Part shown: piece by piece, positions 18,076-26,494 of the stretch
Numbering within the stretch: the first letter of the stretch is position 1
Layout of the letters: the number at the start of each line of letters is the position of its first letter
NCBI GenBank assembly: GCA_025964675.1
Contig: JAOPYI010000011.1
Coordinates: 1-40,583 of the forward strand
Source of the DNA: Sphaerisporangium sp.
GTDB lineage: Bacteria > Actinomycetota > Actinomycetes > Streptosporangiales > Streptosporangiaceae
Reading direction: 5' to 3'
DNA: 40,583 nt
Position numbers and translations under genes: made by a program
The notes under the pieces: generated by a model
What the model saw: the letters and a program-made list of their open reading frames with translations, nothing else
What the model was told of the DNA's origin: nothing
Databases searched by the model: none

Positions 18076-19503
18076 ATGAGCATGGAGCAGACCCGCGTCG
18101 CGCCGCCCGGCACGAAGGTGGGGCTGGTGGCCGGGGGGCTCGGGGCCTACTGGCCGCAGTTCCCCGAGCTGCTTCCCCAGCTCACCCGCTCCGCCGAGCG
18201 GGTGTCGAAGCGCCTGCGGGCACTCGGCTGCGATGTGGTGGACGCCGGCTTCGTCTCCGACGCCCAGGAGTGCGCCGTCGCCGCCGAGCGGCTGCGCCAG
18301 GCCGGGTGCGACATCATCGTCGGCTTCCTTACCACCTACATGACCGCGACGATGCTCCTGCCGGTCGCGCAGCGCAGCGGGGCTCCCGTGCTGCTGATCA
18401 ACCTTCAGCCCACCGAGTCGATGGACCACGCCACCTTCGACACCGGCCAGTGGCTGGCCTACTGCGGGGCGTGCCCGCTGCCCGAGATGGCCAACACCTT
18501 CATCCGCGCCGGCATCCCGTTCCGCTCGGTCTCCGGCCACCTCGAGGACGAGCGGGCCTGGGACAAGATCGGGCGCTGGGTGCGGGCGGCAGGGGTGCGG
18601 GCGGCGCTCCGGCACGGCCGCCACGGCCTGATGGGCCATCTGTACCCTGGCATGCTCGACGTCGCCACCGACCTCACGCTGGTGCCGGTGAACCTCGGTG
18701 GCCACGTCGAGGTGCTGGAGTTCGACGACCTGCGCGTGCGGGTCGAGATGGTCGGCGAGTCCGAGGTCAAGGAGCGCATGGCCCTGGCGAGGGACATCTT
18801 CGAGCTGGACGACTCCGTAGACGAGGAGGACTTCGCCTGGGCCGCCAGGGTGTCCGTCGGGCTCGACCGGCTGACCGGCGACTTCGCCCTCGACAGCCTG
18901 GCGTACTACCACCGGGGCCTTGACGGCGAGGTCCACGAGCGGCTCGGCGCGGGCATGATCCTCGGAGCGTCGCTGCTCACCGCGCGGGGCATTCCGGCCG
19001 CGGGGGAGTACGAGCTGCGCACCTCCCTCGCCATGCTCATCATGGACCGGCTCGGCGGCGGCGGGTCGTTCACGGAGTTCCAGGCCCTCGACTTCGCGCG
19101 TGGCCACGTCGAGATGGGCCACGACGGCCCCGCCCACCTCTCCATCAGCTCCCACCGCCCGCTGCTGCGCGGCCTCGGCGTCTACCACGGCAAGCGGGGG
19201 TTCGGGGTGTCGGTGGAGTTCGACGTCGCACACGGCCCGGTCACCGCCTTCGGCCTCCGGCACGGGCGCGACGGGAGGTTCGCGTTCGTCGTCTCCGAGG
19301 GCGAGGTCGTCGACGGGCCGCGTCTGCGGATCGGCAACACCACCTCCCGGGTCGACTTCGGCTGCGACCCTGGCGAGTGGACCGACGCCTGGAGCGCCAC
19401 CGGCATCTCCCACCACTGGGCCCTCGGCACCGGCCACCGCACGGCCGACCTCCACGCCCTCGCCGACCTCATGGAGATCGAGCTCGTCGAGGTGAAGCCG
19501 TGA
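18076..19503 (+). CDS. L-fucose/L-arabinose isomerase-family protein
   Basis: A 475-aa cytosolic sugar isomerase-like protein. The start region KVGLVAGGLGAYWPQFPELLPQL is typical of the L-arabinose isomerase-like group. IIVGFLTTYMTATMLLPVAQRSGAPVLLINLQP forms the first Rossmann-like domain. Later motifs include GASLLTARGIPAAGEYELRTSLAMLIMDRL, with a Glu suited to metal binding, GHVEMGHDGPAHLS and SHHWALGTGH near the C-terminus. The reaction would be aldose-ketose isomerisation; the substrate is not clear. GAGGAG precedes ATG 18076. The gene stands alone behind a LacI-type operator, so a carbohydrate-induced, distantly encoded regulator is likely. Confidence 0.85.
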   Translation: MSMEQTRVAPPGTKVGLVAGGLGAYWPQFPELLPQLTRSAERVSKRLRALGCDVVDAGFVSDAQECAVAAERLRQAGCDIIVGFLTTYMTATMLLPVAQRSGAPVLLINLQPTESMDHATFDTGQWLAYCGACPLPEMANTFIRAGIPFRSVSGHLEDERAWDKIGRWVRAAGVRAALRHGRHGLMGHLYPGMLDVATDLTLVPVNLGGHVEVLEFDDLRVRVEMVGESEVKERMALARDIFELDDSVDEEDFAWAARVSVGLDRLTGDFALDSLAYYHRGLDGEVHERLGAGMILGASLLTARGIPAAGEYELRTSLAMLIMDRLGGGGSFTEFQALDFARGHVEMGHDGPAHLSISSHRPLLRGLGVYHGKRGFGVSVEFDVAHGPVTAFGLRHGRDGRFAFVVSEGEVVDGPRLRIGNTTSRVDFGCDPGEWTDAWSATGISHHWALGTGHRTADLHALADLMEIELVEVKP

Positions 19504-19560: not shown

Positions 19561-21219
19561 ATGGCTAACCCGGCGATTTTGACCGTTGACGACGACCCGG
19601 CCGTCTCCCGGTCGGTGGCCCGAGATGTCCGGCGCCGATACGGCGACCGTTACCGTGTCGTACGTGCCGACTCCGGCGAGGGCGCCCTAGAGGCGCTGCG
19701 CGAGATCAAGCTGCGCGGTCAACAGGTCGCCGTCCTGCTCGCGGACTACCGCATGCCCCAGATGAACGGCATCCAGTTCCTCGAGGCCGCGATGGACATC
19801 TTCCCGCGCGCCCGTCGCGTCCTTCTGACCGCGTACGCGGACACGAACGCGGCCATCGACGCGATCAACATCGTCGACCTCGACCACTACCTGCTGAAGC
19901 CGTGGAACCCGCCGGAGGAGAAGCTTTACCCGGTGGTCGACGCGATGCTCGACGCCTGGCTCGCGGCCCCCGACGAGACGATCACCGAGACCCGCGTCGT
20001 CGGGCACCGGTGGTCGGCGCCGTCGTTCGCGGTCCGTGACTTCCTCGCCCGCAACCTCGTGCCGTACCGCTGGATGCTGGCCGATGAGGCCGAAGGCGGG
20101 CGCCTCCTGTCGGCGGCGTGCCTGACCATCGACGACGTCCCCCTGGTCGTCACGCCGGACGGCACGTCGCTGGTCAAGCCCAGCGAGGCCGACCTCGCCG
20201 CGCACGTCGGGCTGACCACCACGCCCGCCCAGGACTTCTACGATCTGGTCGTCGTCGGCGCGGGCCCGGCGGGTCTGGGCGCGGCGGTGTACGGCGCGTC
20301 TGAGGGGCTGCGCACCGTGCTGCTGGAGCAGCGCGCGACCGGCGGGCAGGCCGGCCAGAGCAGCCGCATCGAGAACTACCTCGGCTTCCCCGAGGGGGTG
20401 TCGGGCGCGCAGCTCACCGATCGTGCCCGCAGGCAGGCGCTCCGGTTCGGCGCCGAGATCCTGACCACCCGCGAGGTCGTCGCCCTGGAGTCCGGAGGAT
20501 CGACGCGGTTGCTGCGCTTCGGAGACGGCAGCCTCATCGCCGCCCACACGGTCGTGCTGGCCACCGGAGTGTCCTACCGCATGCTGGAGGCGCCGGGACT
20601 GGCCGAGCTTACAGGCCGGGGCGTCTTCTACGGCTCGGCCGCGACCGAGGCCCCGAGCTGCGCCGGCCAGGAGATCTACATCGTGGGAGGCGCCAACTCC
20701 GCGGGGCAGGCGGCCGTGCACTTCTCCAGGTACGCCCGGCGCGTGCACATCCTCATCCGGGCCGGCGACCTGCGGCGGTCGATGTCGCAGTACCTCATCG
20801 ACCAGATAGAGGAGCACGACAACATCGAGATCCATCCCCACACCCAGGTGGTCGGCGGCGAGGGCGACGGCCACCTCGAGCGGCTGTCGCTGTGCGACCC
20901 CCGCTCCGGGCAGGTCCGCACGGTCGAGACCTCATGGCTGTTCGTCTTCATCGGCGCCGAGCCGCGCACCGACTGGCTCGACAAGGCGGTGGCCCGCGAC
21001 GATCGGGGCTTCGTGCTCACCGGCCCGGACCTGCTCGCCGACGGCCGGCGCCCGCCGGGGTGGTCGCTGCCCCGCGATCCCTACCACCTGGAGTCCAGCA
21101 TGCCGGGCGTCTTCGCGGCGGGCGACGTGCGGGCCGACTCGGTCAAACGTGTAGCGTCCGCCGTGGGCGAGGGCGCGATGGCGGTCTCGCTGATCCACCG
21201 TTATCTGGAGGCCCAATGA
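19561..21219 (+). CDS. Response regulator fused to thioredoxin-reductase-like FAD oxidoreductase lacking CxxC
   Basis: A 552-aa three-part protein. Residues 5-125 are a receiver domain: acidic pocket VDDDP, phosphoacceptor Asp62 in LLADYRMPQMNG, and Lys113 in LLKPWNPP. Residues about 145-225 look like a glutaredoxin-fold spacer (FAVRDFLARNLVPYRWML, VPLVVTPDGTSLVKPS) without a Cys pair. Residues 228-552 form a thioredoxin-reductase-like flavoprotein with FAD motif GAGPAGLG (233-240), TGGQAG, NADPH motif GGANSAGQAA and C-terminal FAAGDVRADSVKRVASAVGEGA. The redox CxxC of thioredoxin reductase is absent: the region reads YGSAATEAPSC. It should therefore not reduce thioredoxin in the normal way. 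Its stop overlaps the start of the kinase gene, its probable partner. Confidence 0.92.
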   Translation: MANPAILTVDDDPAVSRSVARDVRRRYGDRYRVVRADSGEGALEALREIKLRGQQVAVLLADYRMPQMNGIQFLEAAMDIFPRARRVLLTAYADTNAAIDAINIVDLDHYLLKPWNPPEEKLYPVVDAMLDAWLAAPDETITETRVVGHRWSAPSFAVRDFLARNLVPYRWMLADEAEGGRLLSAACLTIDDVPLVVTPDGTSLVKPSEADLAAHVGLTTTPAQDFYDLVVVGAGPAGLGAAVYGASEGLRTVLLEQRATGGQAGQSSRIENYLGFPEGVSGAQLTDRARRQALRFGAEILTTREVVALESGGSTRLLRFGDGSLIAAHTVVLATGVSYRMLEAPGLAELTGRGVFYGSAATEAPSCAGQEIYIVGGANSAGQAAVHFSRYARRVHILIRAGDLRRSMSQYLIDQIEEHDNIEIHPHTQVVGGEGDGHLERLSLCDPRSGQVRTVETSWLFVFIGAEPRTDWLDKAVARDDRGFVLTGPDLLADGRRPPGWSLPRDPYHLESSMPGVFAAGDVRADSVKRVASAVGEGAMAVSLIHRYLEAQ

Positions 21220-22673
21220 GCGAGCCGGCCGAGACCGCCCGGCGCGGTGACAGGGGCGGTGACCGCCTGACCACCGCCGAGCTGCGCACCCTGTTCCTGT
21301 TGGAGGCGCTCGACGACGCGCAGCTCGCCAGGTTCGTCGAGCACGGCCGTGTGGAGCGCTGGCGGGCGGGCACCACGATCTACCAGGAGGGCGAGCCGGC
21401 CACGTGCTTCTACCAGCTGCTCACCGGCACGATCGCGATGACCCGGCGCGTCCAGGGCGACGAGGTCGAGGTCACGCGCACCGAGCAGCGGGGCGTCTAC
21501 GCGGGCGCCATGCAGGCCTACCTGGCCGACGAGGTGGGCCAGAACTACTCCAGCAGCCTGCACGCGATCAGCGACGTCGAGCTGTTCACCCTGCCCGCGA
21601 CGGTCCTGTCCAAGTCGCTGCGCGAGTGGTTCCCGATGGCGACCCACCTGCTGGAGGGCATGTTCTTCGGCATGCGCGCCAACCAGACGATCGTCGGCGA
21701 GCGGGAGCGCCTGCTCGCCCTCGGCTCGCTGTCGGCCAGTCTGACCCACGAGCTGAACAACCCCGCCGCCGCGGCCGTACGGGCCACCGCCGTGCTGCGT
21801 GAGCGGGTCGCCGGCATGCGCCACAAGCTTGCCATGATCGCCGACGGGCGGCTCGACGGCAGCCGCCTGCACGACCTCGTCGAGCTGCAGGAGGACGCCG
21901 TCAAGCGGGCCGCGAGCGCCGCGCCCCTGTCGGCGCTGGCCACCGCGGACGCCGAGGACGAGCTCTGCGACTGGCTCGACGACCACGACGTCACGGGCGG
22001 GTGGGAGCTCGCGCCCACGCTGGTCGCCGGCGGCATCGACGTGCGCTGGCTGGAGCAGATCACCGGAGCCGTGGGCGGTGAGAACCTCGAGGCCGCCGTG
22101 CGATGGCTCACCTACACGATCGAGACCGAGCTGCTGATGGGCGAGATCGACGACGCCGTGACCCGCGTCTCCACGCTGGTCTCGGCCGCCAAGCAGTACT
22201 CCCAGCTCGACCGGGCCCCCTACCAGACCGTCGACGTGCACGACCTGCTCGACGCCACGCTGACGATGATGCAGGCGAAGACGCCCGGCGGGGTGCGCAC
22301 GGTCAGGGAGTACGACCGCACGGTGCCGCTGATCCCCGCGTACGCCGCCGAGCTCAACCAGGTGTGGACCAACCTCATCGACAACGCCTTCGGGGCCATG
22401 CGTCCCGGCGGCGGCACCCTCACCCTGCGCACGGGGCACGACGCCGACCGGATCTTCGTCGAGATCGCGGACACCGGGCCGGGCATCCCGCCCGAGATCC
22501 GGCCGCGGATCTTCGAGCCGTTCTTCACCACGAAGGCGGTCGGCGAGGGTACGGGCCTCGGTCTGGACATCTCCTACCGGATCATCGTGAACAAGCATCA
22601 CGGGGACATCCGGGTGGAGTCCGAGCCGGGGAACACCCGCTTCCGGGTGCTCCTGCCGATCGCGCCCGGCTAG
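21216..22673 (+). CDS. Sensor histidine kinase with cyclic-nucleotide-binding-like domain
   Basis: A 485-aa soluble kinase. Residues about 20-135 form a cNMP-binding beta-barrel ([47 protein letters not shown]). An H-box with His178 follows in [18 protein letters not shown]. The ATPase domain is at about 350-485 with N-box [18 protein letters not shown]1 DTGPGIPPE, the FFTTK switch and G2 GTGLGLDIS. The long dimerisation region between (about 180-350) may hold another sensor. No membrane helix is seen, so it senses a cytoplasmic signal. ATG 21216 overlaps the stop of the receiver-flavoprotein gene (ATGA), implying that it phosphorylates Asp62 of that protein (inference). It ends overlapping the convergent STAS gene by four bases. 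Confidence 0.93.
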
Positions 22674-23479
22674 GTCGCGTCCGGGTCGCCGAGCACCTCT
22701 GCCCCGAGCCCCGCGAAGACCGCGGCGCGCCGGCGGATCTGCTCGGCCTTCGCCTGGTGGGAGCGGCCGTCGCAGGAAGCGGCTCCCGCCGAGCCGACCG
22801 GCCGGGCTTCCAGCGCGAGATGGGAGTCGGCCAGGCGCTCGTGCACCTCGGCGAGGGTCGCACAGGTCACCTGGATCCGCGTGCGCAGTGTCTCCAGCCG
22901 CTCCTCGGCCTCCTTCCTCAGCCGCGCCGACCTCTCCAGCGCCGACCGCATGGCCTCCTTGGTCGCCGGATCGGCCGTGATCGGAGGGCGCGCCGTCGTG
23001 TCCGCGGGCGGGCTCACCGGCTCTCGGGTTTCCATACGTGGCAGGAGAACGCGGACGTCGGCCCGCGTCCGGTAGGTGCGCTGGGGCCCAAGGCGGCGGA
23101 ACACCGGGACATGCCGGGCCGGGGCCTGAGCGGTGCTCGTGACGCTCTGTACCCACTCGCGGGTGATGACCTGCGGGAACCCCGGATCGGTCGGCGGCCA
23201 GAGCAGGTCGAGCAGCCGTGCCACGGGCGGGGAGGCGGCGATGGCCAGCCTGCCCCCGGTGATCTGGAGGCTGTCGTGGGCTCGCGCCAGCACCCGTGCT
23301 CCGGCGACGTCGCAGAACCACAGCTCGCCGGCGTTCACGAGAATGTGACGGACTCCGCCCGTGACCAGGCGCTGCAACGCCGATTCGAGGCGGTCGCAGT
23401 TGGAGGCGTCCACCTCACCCGTCAACGTCACCAGAGCCGTGTCCGCATGACGATGAACTAGGTGGACGGACATATCCAT
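22670..23479 (-). CDS. STAS-domain protein with coiled-coil C-terminus
   Basis: A 269-aa protein. Residues 1-95 are a STAS (anti-sigma-antagonist-like) domain: TALVTLTGEVDASNCDRLESALQRLV, then HILVNAGELWFCDVAGARVLARA. At the place where SpoIIAA/RsbV-type proteins carry the phosphorylated Ser (normally D-S-S/T-G) this one has D-V-A-G, so phospho-switching by a kinase is unlikely. Residues about 170-235 are a charged helical/coiled-coil stretch (KEAMRSALERSARLRKEAEERLETLRTRI). The C-terminal region has an unassigned tail. Start 23479 or 23473 (Met3) are both possible after GAGG. It is divergent from the CheB gene with 96 bp between, and probably acts in the same signalling block. Confidence 0.82.
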   Translation of the reverse strand: MDMSVHLVHRHADTALVTLTGEVDASNCDRLESALQRLVTGGVRHILVNAGELWFCDVAGARVLARAHDSLQITGGRLAIAASPPVARLLDLLWPPTDPGFPQVITREWVQSVTSTAQAPARHVPVFRRLGPQRTYRTRADVRVLLPRMETREPVSPPADTTARPPITADPATKEAMRSALERSARLRKEAEERLETLRTRIQVTCATLAEVHERLADSHLALEARPVGSAGAASCDGRSHQAKAEQIRRRAAVFAGLGAEVLGDPDAT

Positions 23480-23575: not shown

Positions 23576-24583
23576 GTGCCTGACCCAAACGCTCGTGATC
23601 TGGTGGTCATCGCGGCTTCGGCGGGCGGGGTCGAAGCCCTTCGCCACCTGCTGGCCGAGCTCCCCCCCGACCTTCCGGCCTCCGTTCTGATCGTGCTGCA
23701 CGTGCCCGCGCACGGGAGCAGCGCGCTGGCCGGCATCCTGGACCGCGCGGGACCGCTGAAGGCCGCCGCCGCGACCGACGCCGAGCTTCTGCGGCACGGC
23801 CGCGTCTACGTCGCTCCGCCCGACCGCCATCTGCTGGTCCAGGCCGGCGTCATACGGCTGTCACGCGGTCCCCGGCACAACGGCCATCGCCCGGCCGCCG
23901 ACCCCCTGTTCCTCAGCGCCGCGCTCGAAGGCGGTCCCCGTACGCTCGCCGTGGTGCTCAGCGGCACGCTCGACGACGGAGCCCGCGGCTGCGCCGCCGT
24001 GGAACGGCACCACGGCGCCGTCGCCGTACAGGACCCTGATCAGAGCGCGTTCGACGGGATGCCGCGGGCGGCCGTCGCCGCGACACGGAAAGCCGAGGTG
24101 CTCCCCGTGAAGGGGATCGCCCAGTGGATCGCACGGCAGAGCCGGAGCGCCGCCATGGAGGCGTCCGTGGACGACCCGGAGGCCGAGCGTGAAGTGACCC
24201 TGTTCCTGGCAAACGGTGCGGCTCAGACGCCCGAAGGCAACTTGACCGGATTCAGTTGTCCTGAGTGCGGTGGGCCGATATACGAGACGCAGGCCAGGTC
24301 CGGTCCGCGCTACGAGTGCCGGGTAGGCCACGGCTGGTCCTCTGAGAGCATGGTCGCCGGCCAGTCCGAGGCGGTCGAGCGGGCGCTGTGGGTGGCCATC
24401 CTCCGGCTGGAGGAGCGGTTGCGACTGCTGGAACGCATGATCAAGCGGGCGGAGGAGCAGGGCCGGACGTACTCCTCCCAGCACATGGCCGAGGAGGTCG
24501 AACAGACCAGAGACGCGCTGCGGACCATGCGTATATTGCAGTCACGCATCAGCGAAGCAGACCGTGGCGTTGTCTTCCCATAG
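23576..24583 (+). CDS. CheB-type methylesterase without receiver domain, with zinc-ribbon tail
   Basis: A 335-aa protein. The CheB methylesterase/deamidase fold fills residues 8-190. The catalytic triad is complete: Ser15 in IAASAGGVEAL, His42 in VLHVPAHGSSAL, and Asp134 in VLSGTLDDGARG. The N-terminal receiver domain of chemotaxis CheB is missing. Residues about 225-255 contain CPECGG and a following YECRVGHGW, suggesting a small zinc site. A helical C-terminus follows (about 265-330, heptad-like EERLRLLERMIKRAEEQ). The start is GTG 23576; an overlapping ATG at 23574 is in another frame. It pairs with the CheR-like gene 30 bp downstream. No methyl-accepting receptor is encoded nearby, so its substrate is unknown. 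Confidence 0.9.
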   Translation: MPDPNARDLVVIAASAGGVEALRHLLAELPPDLPASVLIVLHVPAHGSSALAGILDRAGPLKAAAATDAELLRHGRVYVAPPDRHLLVQAGVIRLSRGPRHNGHRPAADPLFLSAALEGGPRTLAVVLSGTLDDGARGCAAVERHHGAVAVQDPDQSAFDGMPRAAVAATRKAEVLPVKGIAQWIARQSRSAAMEASVDDPEAEREVTLFLANGAAQTPEGNLTGFSCPECGGPIYETQARSGPRYECRVGHGWSSESMVAGQSEAVERALWVAILRLEERLRLLERMIKRAEEQGRTYSSQHMAEEVEQTRDALRTMRILQSRISEADRGVVFP

Positions 24584-24616
24584 CGGTCCCCGGCAGGCAT
24601 AGGCTAGAAGACCGTG

Positions 24617-26494
24617 ATGGCCGGCGAGGACCGTGAATTCGAAGACCTCCTTCTGATGCTGAAGGAGACTCGAGGATTTGATTTTTCCGGATATAAGCGC
24701 ACAACTCTCATGCGCCGTATCGGACGGCGGCTCGAAGCGCTCAAACTCCACCACTACGGCGAGTATCGCGACTATCTCGAGTTGGAGCCGGAGGAGTTCA
24801 ACCGGCTCTTCGACAGCCTGCTGATCAACGTCACCGGCTTCTTCCGCGATCCCGTCGCCTGGCACACGCTGCGCTCGACCGTCATCCCGTCCTTGCTGGA
24901 CAGCAAGGGGGCGGGCGCGGCGATCCGCGTCTGGAGCGCCGGGTGCGCCACCGGTGAGGAGGCCTACAGCCTCGCGATCGCGCTGGCCGAGGAGCTCGGC
25001 ATGGACGGGTTCCGTGAGCGGGTCAAGATCTACGCCACCGACCTGGACGAGAAGGCGCTCCAGGTCGCCCGGTCGGCGGTCTACAGTGAGCGCGACCTGG
25101 AGGAGGTCCCGTCCGAGCTGCGCCCGGTCTACTTCGAGCCGGTGGAGCACGGCTTCGCCTTCCGGCGCGACCTGCGGCGCCAGCTCATCTTCGGGCGCAA
25201 CGATCTGACGCGGGACGCCCCGATCTCCCGCGTCGACCTGCTGCTGGCACGCAACACCCTGATGTACTTCAACTCCGGCACCCAGCGCAGCATCGTCCGC
25301 CGGTTCCACTTCGCCCTGTCCGACCCGGGCTACCTTTTCCTCGGCAAGGCCGAGATGCTGCTCAACCACAGCGACAAGTTCGAACCCGTGGATCTGCGCA
25401 TGCGCATATTCAGGAGGGTCGGAACGTCACCGATCGGTGCCCGGGCACCATGGGGGTCCGGCACGATGCCGCATCGGCAACCGCGTGACCTCGCGCTCCA
25501 CGCCGCGGCGCTCGCCTCGGGCCCGGTCGCGCAGATCGTGGTCGACCGCGCCGGCAAGGTGGCGCTGGTGAACTCCCGCGCCGAGATGCTGTTCAACCTC
25601 AACCCGCGCGACGTCGGCAAGCCGTTCCATGACCTGGAGGTCTCCTACCGGCCCGCCGAGCTGCGCTCGGTGATCGAGCAGGTGCGGACGGAGCTGCGGG
25701 CCGCCGATCTCCAGGACGTCACCTGGCACCGCGCGGGCACCCAGGAGGCCAGCGTCTTCGACATCTCCGTCGTCCCGCTGCTGGACCGGCCGGGCGGGGA
25801 GCTGGCGGGCATCGGCATCAACTTCCACGACGTGACGCGTTACCGCAGGCTCCGTGACGAGCTACAGCAGGCCAACAAGGAGCTGGGGCACGCCTACGAG
25901 GAGCTGCAGTCGCTCAACGAGGAGCTGGAGACCACCAACGAGGAGCTCCAGTCCACCAACGAGGAGCTGGAGACCACCAACGAAGAGCTCCAGTCCACCA
26001 ACGAGGAGCTGGAGACGATCAACGAGGAGCTCCAGTCGACCAACGACGAGCTCCAGCAGATCAACGACACGCTGAACGCCCGCAGCGAGCAGCTCGACCA
26101 GGCCAACACCTTCGTCTCCTCGGTGGTGCGCAGCCTCGGCGACGCCGTCGCGGTGGTGGACGCCGACCTGCGCGTGCTGGTCTGGAGCGCGGGGGCCGAG
26201 GAGCTGTGGGGGCTGCGCCCCGACGAGGCGATCGGCCGCGACCTGACCGACCTGGACATCGGCCTTCCCATCGCCGACTTCCTGCCTCAGCTGCGCCGCA
26301 CGCTGTCTGGGGACGCCCCCGAGTACGTGAAGGGACGTCCCACCGGCATCATGGTGAACGCCGTGAACCGGCGCGGGCGTCCCGCACGGCTCAAGGTCGA
26401 GCTCTCCCGGCTCCACGCCGAGGACGCCTCGCCGAGGGGCATGATCCTGGTGATGAACCTCCTCCCTGAGGACCGGGCCGAGCCGCCGGTCTAG
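24617..26494 (+). CDS. CheR methyltransferase-PAS-coiled coil-PAS fusion protein
   Basis: A 625-aa multi-domain protein. Residues about 5-265 are Che[29 protein letters not shown], the AdoMet loop [35 protein letters not shown] and [15 protein letters not shown] domain covers about 300-410, a heptad coiled coil about 415-485, and a second PAS about 495-615. The coiled coil is a run of [14 protein letters not shown] units, encoded by nearly identical 42-bp repeats. Unlike many CheB/CheR hybrid sensors it has no histidine kinase catalytic domain. The start is ATG 24617, with GTG 24614 directly before it as an alternative. It forms an operon with the CheB gene. Confidence 0.92.
25906..26055 (+). 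repeat. In-frame 42-bp repeats encoding a heptad coiled coil
   Basis: Three to four copies of a 42-bp unit (14 codons, [14 protein letters not shown]-like) lie in tandem inside the CheR-PAS gene. Copies differ by a few silent or conservative changes (gaggag/gaagag, accacc/acgatc), so length variation by slippage is possible. The encoded region is a parallel coiled coil. Confidence 0.85.

Follow-up and report, generated by a model that had tools for sequence, protein, structure and literature searches.

A Sphaerisporangium response regulator with a thioredoxin reductase-like output lacking both cysteine pairs, and its predicted partner kinase

We analysed a window of 40,583 nucleotides from Sphaerisporangium sp. 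(assembly GCA_025964675.1, contig JAOPYI010000011.1, positions 1 to 40,583), whose forward strand carries a response regulator gene overlapped by a histidine kinase gene. The response regulator (19561..21219, 552 residues plus stop, defined by its open reading frame (ORF) and domain searches) comprises a receiver, a glutaredoxin-like (Grx-like) domain and a flavoprotein module resembling thioredoxin reductase (TrxR). As judged from alignment and phylogeny, both cysteine pairs were lost at the base of one supported clade that retains the FAD and NADPH motifs, and the comparison of loci gives good support to a phosphotransfer pair. The chances appear about even that this two-component pair uses a predicted phosphotransfer to gate electron flow from NADPH, the presumed donor, through FAD to a putative non-thiol acceptor, a reading that builds on the aligned domains, the loss of both cysteine pairs, the kept nucleotide motifs, the conserved pairing and the conserved phospho-site. 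The receiver-TrxR (REC-TrxR) architecture is already known; the present comparison adds that one clade has lost both thiol pairs, that an intact phospho-site goes with the presence of the kinase, and that ZnF-UBP proteins are associated with these flavoproteins.

The receiver spans residues 6-118 (19576..19914; PF00072, 49.1 bits against a Pfam cut-off of 30.2) and contains the predicted phospho-acceptor Asp62 (19744..19746) as well as Lys113 (19897..19899). The TrxR-like FAD/NAD(P)H module, defined by profile and structure comparison, covers residues 224-552 (20230..21216), of which residues 227-538 match Pyr_redox_2 (PF07992; 118.3 bits against a Pfam cut-off of 26.1). Between them lies a spacer of about 75 residues (residues 144-217, 19990..20211) with no cysteines at the CxxC place. 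The window spacer aligns with the CxxC-bearing Grx domains of three relatives (L157, L198 and L199; L numbers designate loci), and its predicted elements follow the order β-α-β-α-β-β-α, which would fit a thioredoxin fold. A Pfam scan of the spacer alone returned nothing, and its top match among PDB sequences, an arsenate reductase at E 0.021, was not accepted as a match. On alignment and element order the spacer is probably a degenerate glutaredoxin/mycoredoxin-type domain. The VIA-align structure rows span residues 223-552 of the flavoprotein and so make no statement on the folds of receiver and spacer.

The window protein reads YGSAATEA where TrxR has CATCDG, with S359-A-A-T362 (20635..20646) at the CxxC place and S359-A-A-T362-E-A aligned to the whole motif. 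In the spacer, S152-A-P-S155 (20014..20025) occupies the Grx CxxC place, and W151-S-A-P-S155 falls in the same columns as the WCPDC of the CxxC-bearing relatives. With WSAPS at WCPDC and YGSAATEA at FCATCDG, neither redox pair of a mycoredoxin-TrxR relay is left. No CxxC occurs at residues 350-372 in the window protein or in the other receiver-headed rows. At both places the motif is absent from 134/134 receiver rows whose locus also contains a kinase gene, 22/22 receiver rows for which no kinase was found, 16/16 rows with a cNMP-like head, one row of another kind and four of seven short rows, one of which (L155) is a C-terminal piece; three short rows (L083, L156 and L158) and nine identical rows were left out of these counts. 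None of the 173 receiver-, cNMP- or otherwise-headed rows thus carries a CxxC, and its lack is, across the aligned rows, a family trait. The CxxC-less set includes L071 from Streptomyces violaceoruber, a close relative of S. coelicolor, whose own SCO7298 is not among the rows. The CxxC-bearing exceptions are again L157, L198 and L199, which come from the same phylum as the window, measure about 400 residues and have no input domain. Their glutaredoxin domain contains WCSDC or WCPDC, and their TrxR domain HFCATCDG. For the Grx part of L157 the closest match is a mycoredoxin (PDB 2lqo, E 9.7e-15), and its score against TIGR02200 is 80.3 bits, beneath the cut-off of 89.5. With both CxxC motifs intact, these three proteins (L157:1489-2688, L198 and L199) are possible single-chain enzymes leading from NADPH to mycothiol disulfide.

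We built a quick-search tree from 76 chosen TrxR-domain rows, two of them ordinary TrxRs that serve as the root. It samples the 134 kinase-linked rows (29) and the seven short rows (six, L155 being left out), and it includes every receiver row for which no kinase was found (22), every cNMP row (16) and the one other row. The 71 CxxC-less rows form one clade with an SH-aLRT support of 100, which is kept after removal of the columns of the active site and of two further changed motifs. L157, L198 and L199 fall outside this clade, in a branching order that the tree does not settle. The nearest CxxC-carrying relatives found are mycoredoxin-TrxR fusions with two CxxC motifs, and the tree places the loss of both pairs at the base of the clade.

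The FAD and NAD(P)H dinucleotide motifs are present in the window flavoprotein, the latter as GGANSAGQAA at residues 376-385 (20686..20715), as the original prediction stated along with YGSAATEA in place of the CxxC; alignment confirms both. Across the 177 CxxC-less rows the nucleotide-site residues that we compared vary little or not at all, and R400 is retained in 179 of 180 rows. Two positions separate the CxxC-less rows from their CxxC-bearing relatives: position 530 (21148..21150 in the window) is Arg in 177/177 of the former and Gln in 3/3 of the latter, and position 383 is Gln in 177/177 and Glu in 3/3. In TrxR the stretches around these positions are close to the flavin or form part of the NADPH site, and the flavin surroundings therefore probably changed along with the loss of the CxxC. 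Since both cysteine pairs are missing and the flavin, NADPH and phosphorylation sites are kept, the name thioredoxin reductase is probably a misnomer for these flavoproteins.

The pairing was followed in the best 80 of at least 542 relatives in a scan of species genomes; among the matches listed, the closest named relative is from Sphaerisporangium, at 93% identity. In 79 of the 80 loci the flavoprotein gene is followed directly, in the same orientation, by a homologous kinase gene, and in 63 of those 79 the kinase gene opens with an in-frame ATGA or GTGA overlap with the flavoprotein stop, as does the window kinase (ATGA, 21216..21219). The kinase of L056 is some 3.8 kb further downstream. 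The same gene order is found on plasmids of Caballeronia (a Betaproteobacterium), Deinococcus, and the Cyanobacteria Gloeothece and Nostoc sp. C052; the flavoprotein and kinase genes of Nostoc edaphicum are separated by a transposase gene and a channel gene. Flavoproteins of this family occur at E<=1e-60 in 94 of 396 sampled genomes of the window's phylum.

The receiver residues D10, D11, D62, T90 and K113 are invariant throughout the alignment of the window with the 80 best loci (81/81 rows). In the wider set they are complete in 133 of the 134 kinase-linked receiver rows; the sole incomplete row, L103, is cut before D10, D11 and D62, so that K113 is kept in 134/134. The kinase is present in the locus, though not adjacent, in two of these 134 rows (L056 and L118). 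Four of the 22 receiver rows for which no kinase was found (L110, L148, L154 and L169) lie inside the kinase clade and have the full set; in L110 a kinase start is cut by the contig end, and L148 and L154 have only 1.5 kb of downstream flank. The other 18 fall outside the kinase clade, 17 of them in one clade, and the set is complete in none of them, D62 being lost in 11 and T90 in 16. A second search with ten kinases found none beside these 18 rows, the downstream flank being 0.5-0.9 kb in L177, L182 and L183. The rows L175-L188, L202 and L204-L206, with decayed phospho-sites and no kinase found beside them, appear to be pseudo-receivers on the same flavoprotein core. No adjacent kinase of this family was found in the 16 cNMP rows, and a kinase stands beside two of ten short rows, taken as L155 and L156, which are C-terminal pieces with the receiver as a separate adjoining match. 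This contrast in phospho-sites supports the predicted phosphorylation of the receiver by the neighbouring kinase, though chiefly as a single event in evolution. The conserved order and overlap, the plasmid loci outside Actinomycetota and the decay of the phospho-site outside the kinase clade together make a phosphotransfer pair well supported. The prediction of a two-component pair gating a flavin enzyme thus stands in its first half, on the 79 loci, the plasmids and the phospho-site decay, and the gating stays a proposed step.

The kinase itself (21216..22673, forward strand, 485 residues plus stop, from its ORF and Pfam) contains a cNMP-binding-like domain (residues 47-133, 21354..21614; cNMP_binding, 41.1 bits against a cut-off of 27.5) and a HATPase_c domain (residues 378-483, 22347..22664; 89.8 bits). 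No Pfam match to HisKA was found in it. His178 in LTHELNNP (21747..21749) is the predicted phospho-donor; this residue, N386/N390, D419-G421, F433/F436 and G443-G449 are invariant in 34/34 aligned kinases, an alignment outside which the kinase rows of L037, L049, L051, L052, L073, L074 and L079 stand. We take these residues to be the phospho-His box and the N, G1, F and G2 boxes that bind ATP. The model of the kinase is of moderate quality (pLDDT 71.8, pTM 0.36) and has two long helices with a helical insert between them. The canonical phosphate cassette of cNMP-binding domains carries Gly-Glu and Arg. The cassette of the window kinase is non-canonical and lacks both; among the 12 kinases compared, some distant ones keep part of it, with Gly-Glu in L120 and an Arg in L111, L119 and L122. 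Binding of cAMP or cGMP by the kinase had been raised as a possibility, and the Pfam match agrees with a domain of this type; the missing cassette residues make such binding doubtful, and canonical cAMP sensing is unsupported. Other parts of the original prediction fared better, namely the cNMP-binding-like kinase overlapping by ATGA, the TrxR fold fused to a receiver with intact Asp62 and Lys113, and the Grx-like spacer.

The core of Grx-like and TrxR-like domains is found with a receiver, with a cNMP-like domain or with no head, and the window genome holds a second copy with a cNMP-like head (L082). Rows with the same head mostly cluster, with exceptions: 15 cNMP rows form one group (support 80), the sixteenth, L123, stands among the receiver rows, and the tree requires five changes of head. 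By reading, cNMP-headed flavoproteins mostly retain the Gly-Glu of the cassette and many lack its Arg. In the 396 sampled genomes 137 flavoprotein places were listed, some of them fragments, and 29 of these have within 10 kb a match to ZnF-UBP (PF02148), a domain best known from ubiquitin biology; if matches were spread evenly over a 5-Mb genome, about 0.7 would be expected. Flavoprotein and ZnF-UBP occur in 94 and 95 of the 396 genomes and together in 68 (odds ratio 27, Fisher p 1e-32, with no correction for kinship). ZnF-UBP genes adjoin the core whether it carries a receiver, a cNMP-like domain or no head, and they do so in Paraburkholderia and Agrobacterium too. Stand-alone ZnF-UBP proteins strongly linked to CxxC-less flavoproteins recur in several phyla (loci L121, L124-L126 and L129).

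The loss of both thiol pairs with the nucleotide motifs kept, the interchangeable or absent head and this ZnF-UBP association would also suit a pseudo-enzyme that works as an NADPH/redox switch. FAD and NADPH would then set a conformation read by partners such as the kinase or ZnF-UBP, with no useful catalysis, and information may pass between flavin and kinase in both directions. The conservation of the nucleotide sites cannot separate such a switch from an enzyme; in the window genome the ZnF-UBP gene is not beside the pair, the two zf-UBP matches being on contigs C217 and C164. We consider a switch of this kind unlikely, if the most credible of the alternatives. Quite doubtful is the bolder proposal that the whole family is a mycoredoxin and TrxR machine stripped of both cysteine pairs and now serves as an NADPH-flavin switch under signal control, its phosphorylation- or cNMP-type heads being exchangeable and its effects running through a bacterial protein related to the ubiquitin-binding ZnF-UBP domain.

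In another alternative, the receiver would be a phosphate sink or adaptor on a constitutive flavoprotein, and phosphorylation would not act on the flavin module. Three complete short CxxC-less rows (L126-L128) have no receiver, and that of other relatives has decayed, so a receiver is not indispensable to the core; the fused, phospho-competent receiver is nevertheless conserved with the kinase gene, also outside Actinomycetota, and this alternative seems improbable. A single-cysteine mechanism at Cys367 (20659..20661), suggested by the first 81 sequences, was dropped family-wide after broader sampling. Very improbable is a thiol reductase after all, in which Cys367 or a neighbouring thioredoxin would replace the CxxC: Cys367 is invariant in the 81 closest rows and present in 11/16 cNMP rows, and a thioredoxin gene adjoins some cNMP-headed relatives (annotated in the L124 and L125 loci, by reading in L082), but the residue sits five positions past the place of the distal CxxC cysteine and is missing from 5/134 kinase-linked, 17/22 kinase-less and 5/16 cNMP rows, and the L082 thioredoxin, used as a query, had no match beside receiver-headed pairs.

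Because the thiol relay is lost and FAD and NADPH binding is constrained, phospho-gated electron transfer from NADPH through FAD to a non-thiol acceptor is the most likely activity. The kinase, with its cNMP-like sensor domain, would phosphorylate Asp62 of the receiver; phosphorylation would alter the dimer or the domain arrangement of the attached module, and this change would switch the module's NAD(P)H-FAD chemistry. The module probably descends from a mycoredoxin-TrxR fusion in which electrons passed from NADPH to FAD, to the CxxC and on to the Grx CxxC, the entire relay having been lost on one branch of the tree and the binding of FAD and NADPH having stayed under strong constraint. Several points weigh against this phospho-gated activity. 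Its support is comparative, and the phospho-site contrast rests mainly on one sister clade rather than on many independent events, with the short flanks of L177, L182 and L183 affecting three of its 18 rows. Loops 259-281 and 528-533 of the flavoprotein model are under pLDDT 50. A NAD kinase neighbour is lineage-bound, with one case in 80 flavoprotein genomes as read from the places, and no acceptor partner was evident in one neighbour clustering of the 80 loci, where only the pair itself recurred widely. If the activity is as proposed, phosphorylation would control redox chemistry directly, not transcription. Such flavoproteins are common (the 94 genomes above) and some are named thioredoxin-disulfide reductase, yet they lack the cysteines of the TrxR mechanism. 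The question can be tested on matched natural variants, namely the CxxC-bearing relative and the forms with a receiver, with a cNMP-like domain or with no head, and the association with ZnF-UBP points towards a partner still to be explained.

The other recurring neighbours in the clustering were lineage-bound genes only; it used a crude GC3 gene caller that recovered the kinase in just 39 of the 80 loci, so missed neighbours are likely. Thirteen of the 80 best loci have a NAD kinase gene adjoining the pair, in one of two arrangements; Pfam was run on two of these 13 and on L152, and confirmed NAD kinase for L014 and L063. As a general partner NAD kinase was set aside as suggestive only, being a rare neighbour in the wider sample, which covered 80 of the 94 flavoprotein-bearing genomes. 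In L063:4494-5690, beside the pair, a NAD kinase is fused to a small GNAT-type acetyltransferase domain (PF14542). By reading of translations, the L082 copy has next to it a thioredoxin gene and, where the locus ends, a fragment of ClpB type, an order also annotated in L124 and L125, where a cNMP-headed CxxC-less flavoprotein stands beside annotated DnaJ, CbpM, ClpB, thioredoxin and UBP. In the window, the gene directly upstream of the pair (18076-19503, forward strand) encodes a weak arabinose/fucose-isomerase-like protein; of the 80 best loci, L001 and L002 alone were found to have it in this position. A CheB-type methylesterase followed by a CheR-PAS protein lies at 23576-26494 on the forward strand, and an adjoining STAS protein on the other strand at 22670-23479.

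Several characterised classes resemble the window protein in part. A glutaredoxin or mycoredoxin has a CxxC nucleophile that is absent here, SAPS standing in place of CPDC. TrxR-like FNR carries a C-terminal extension, whereas the window chain ends like TrxR, without it; the YpdA model (TIGR04018) gives 52.8 bits against a cut-off of 339.9, and neither identity is supported. Against the low-Mr thioredoxin reductase model (TIGR01292) the window protein scores 208.6 bits, with a cut-off of 343.45; it differs from that class in lacking the CxxC and in its added receiver and Grx-like domains. A Trx/Grx-fold domain likewise precedes the TrxR domain in AhpF and in L157, L198 and L199. L157, L198 and L199 keep both CxxC motifs, unlike the window protein, which has lost both and gained a receiver. 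AhpF gives the best Foldseek E-value for the window model, but the whole-chain superposition is poor (TM 0.37, rmsd 20.7), the AhpF model (TIGR03140) gives 158.5 bits against a cut-off of 502.9, and both CxxC motifs are missing from the window protein. AhpF retains both (PMC8945050).

The same Grx-like and CxxC-less TrxR-like core is found in relatives, including L082, that RefSeq names thioredoxin-disulfide reductases with a cNMP domain, a name that the alignment makes doubtful. These have a cNMP-like head instead of the receiver, no family kinase beside any of the 16, and chaperone, thioredoxin or UBP neighbours in some. In the open-licence PMC literature, subscription papers being outside the search, the passages retrieved held no report of CxxC loss in this family, and those of PMC4520597 and PMC8866557 held nothing on the family. 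The nearest described class is that of the TrxB response regulators. Fusions of this kind, expected by the original prediction to exist in databases, appear as REC-TrxR or TrxB response regulators in the relevant entries of two-component censuses (PMC5847659, PMC9739842, PMC9953108, PMC2716373), one of which lists SCO7298/SCO7297 of Streptomyces coelicolor as a response regulator-histidine kinase pair (PMC9739842). In extracts of the expression literature, a study of sulfur stress counts SCO7298 as trxB3 (PMC9952706), and the gene is reported to be induced by polysulfide, also without AdpA, and strongly upregulated by acid shock (PMC9952706, PMC2631018). These accounts, as far as the extracts go, treat the output of the class as a thioredoxin reductase and leave the missing cysteine pairs unmentioned. 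The window protein shares the architecture of SCO7298/SCO7297 and of the 'Mycobacterium-like' REC-thioredoxin reductase fusions, and it has the features of the TrxB class: a receiver with the acidic pair, phospho-Asp, Thr and Lys, an output of TrxR fold, and a neighbouring kinase gene.

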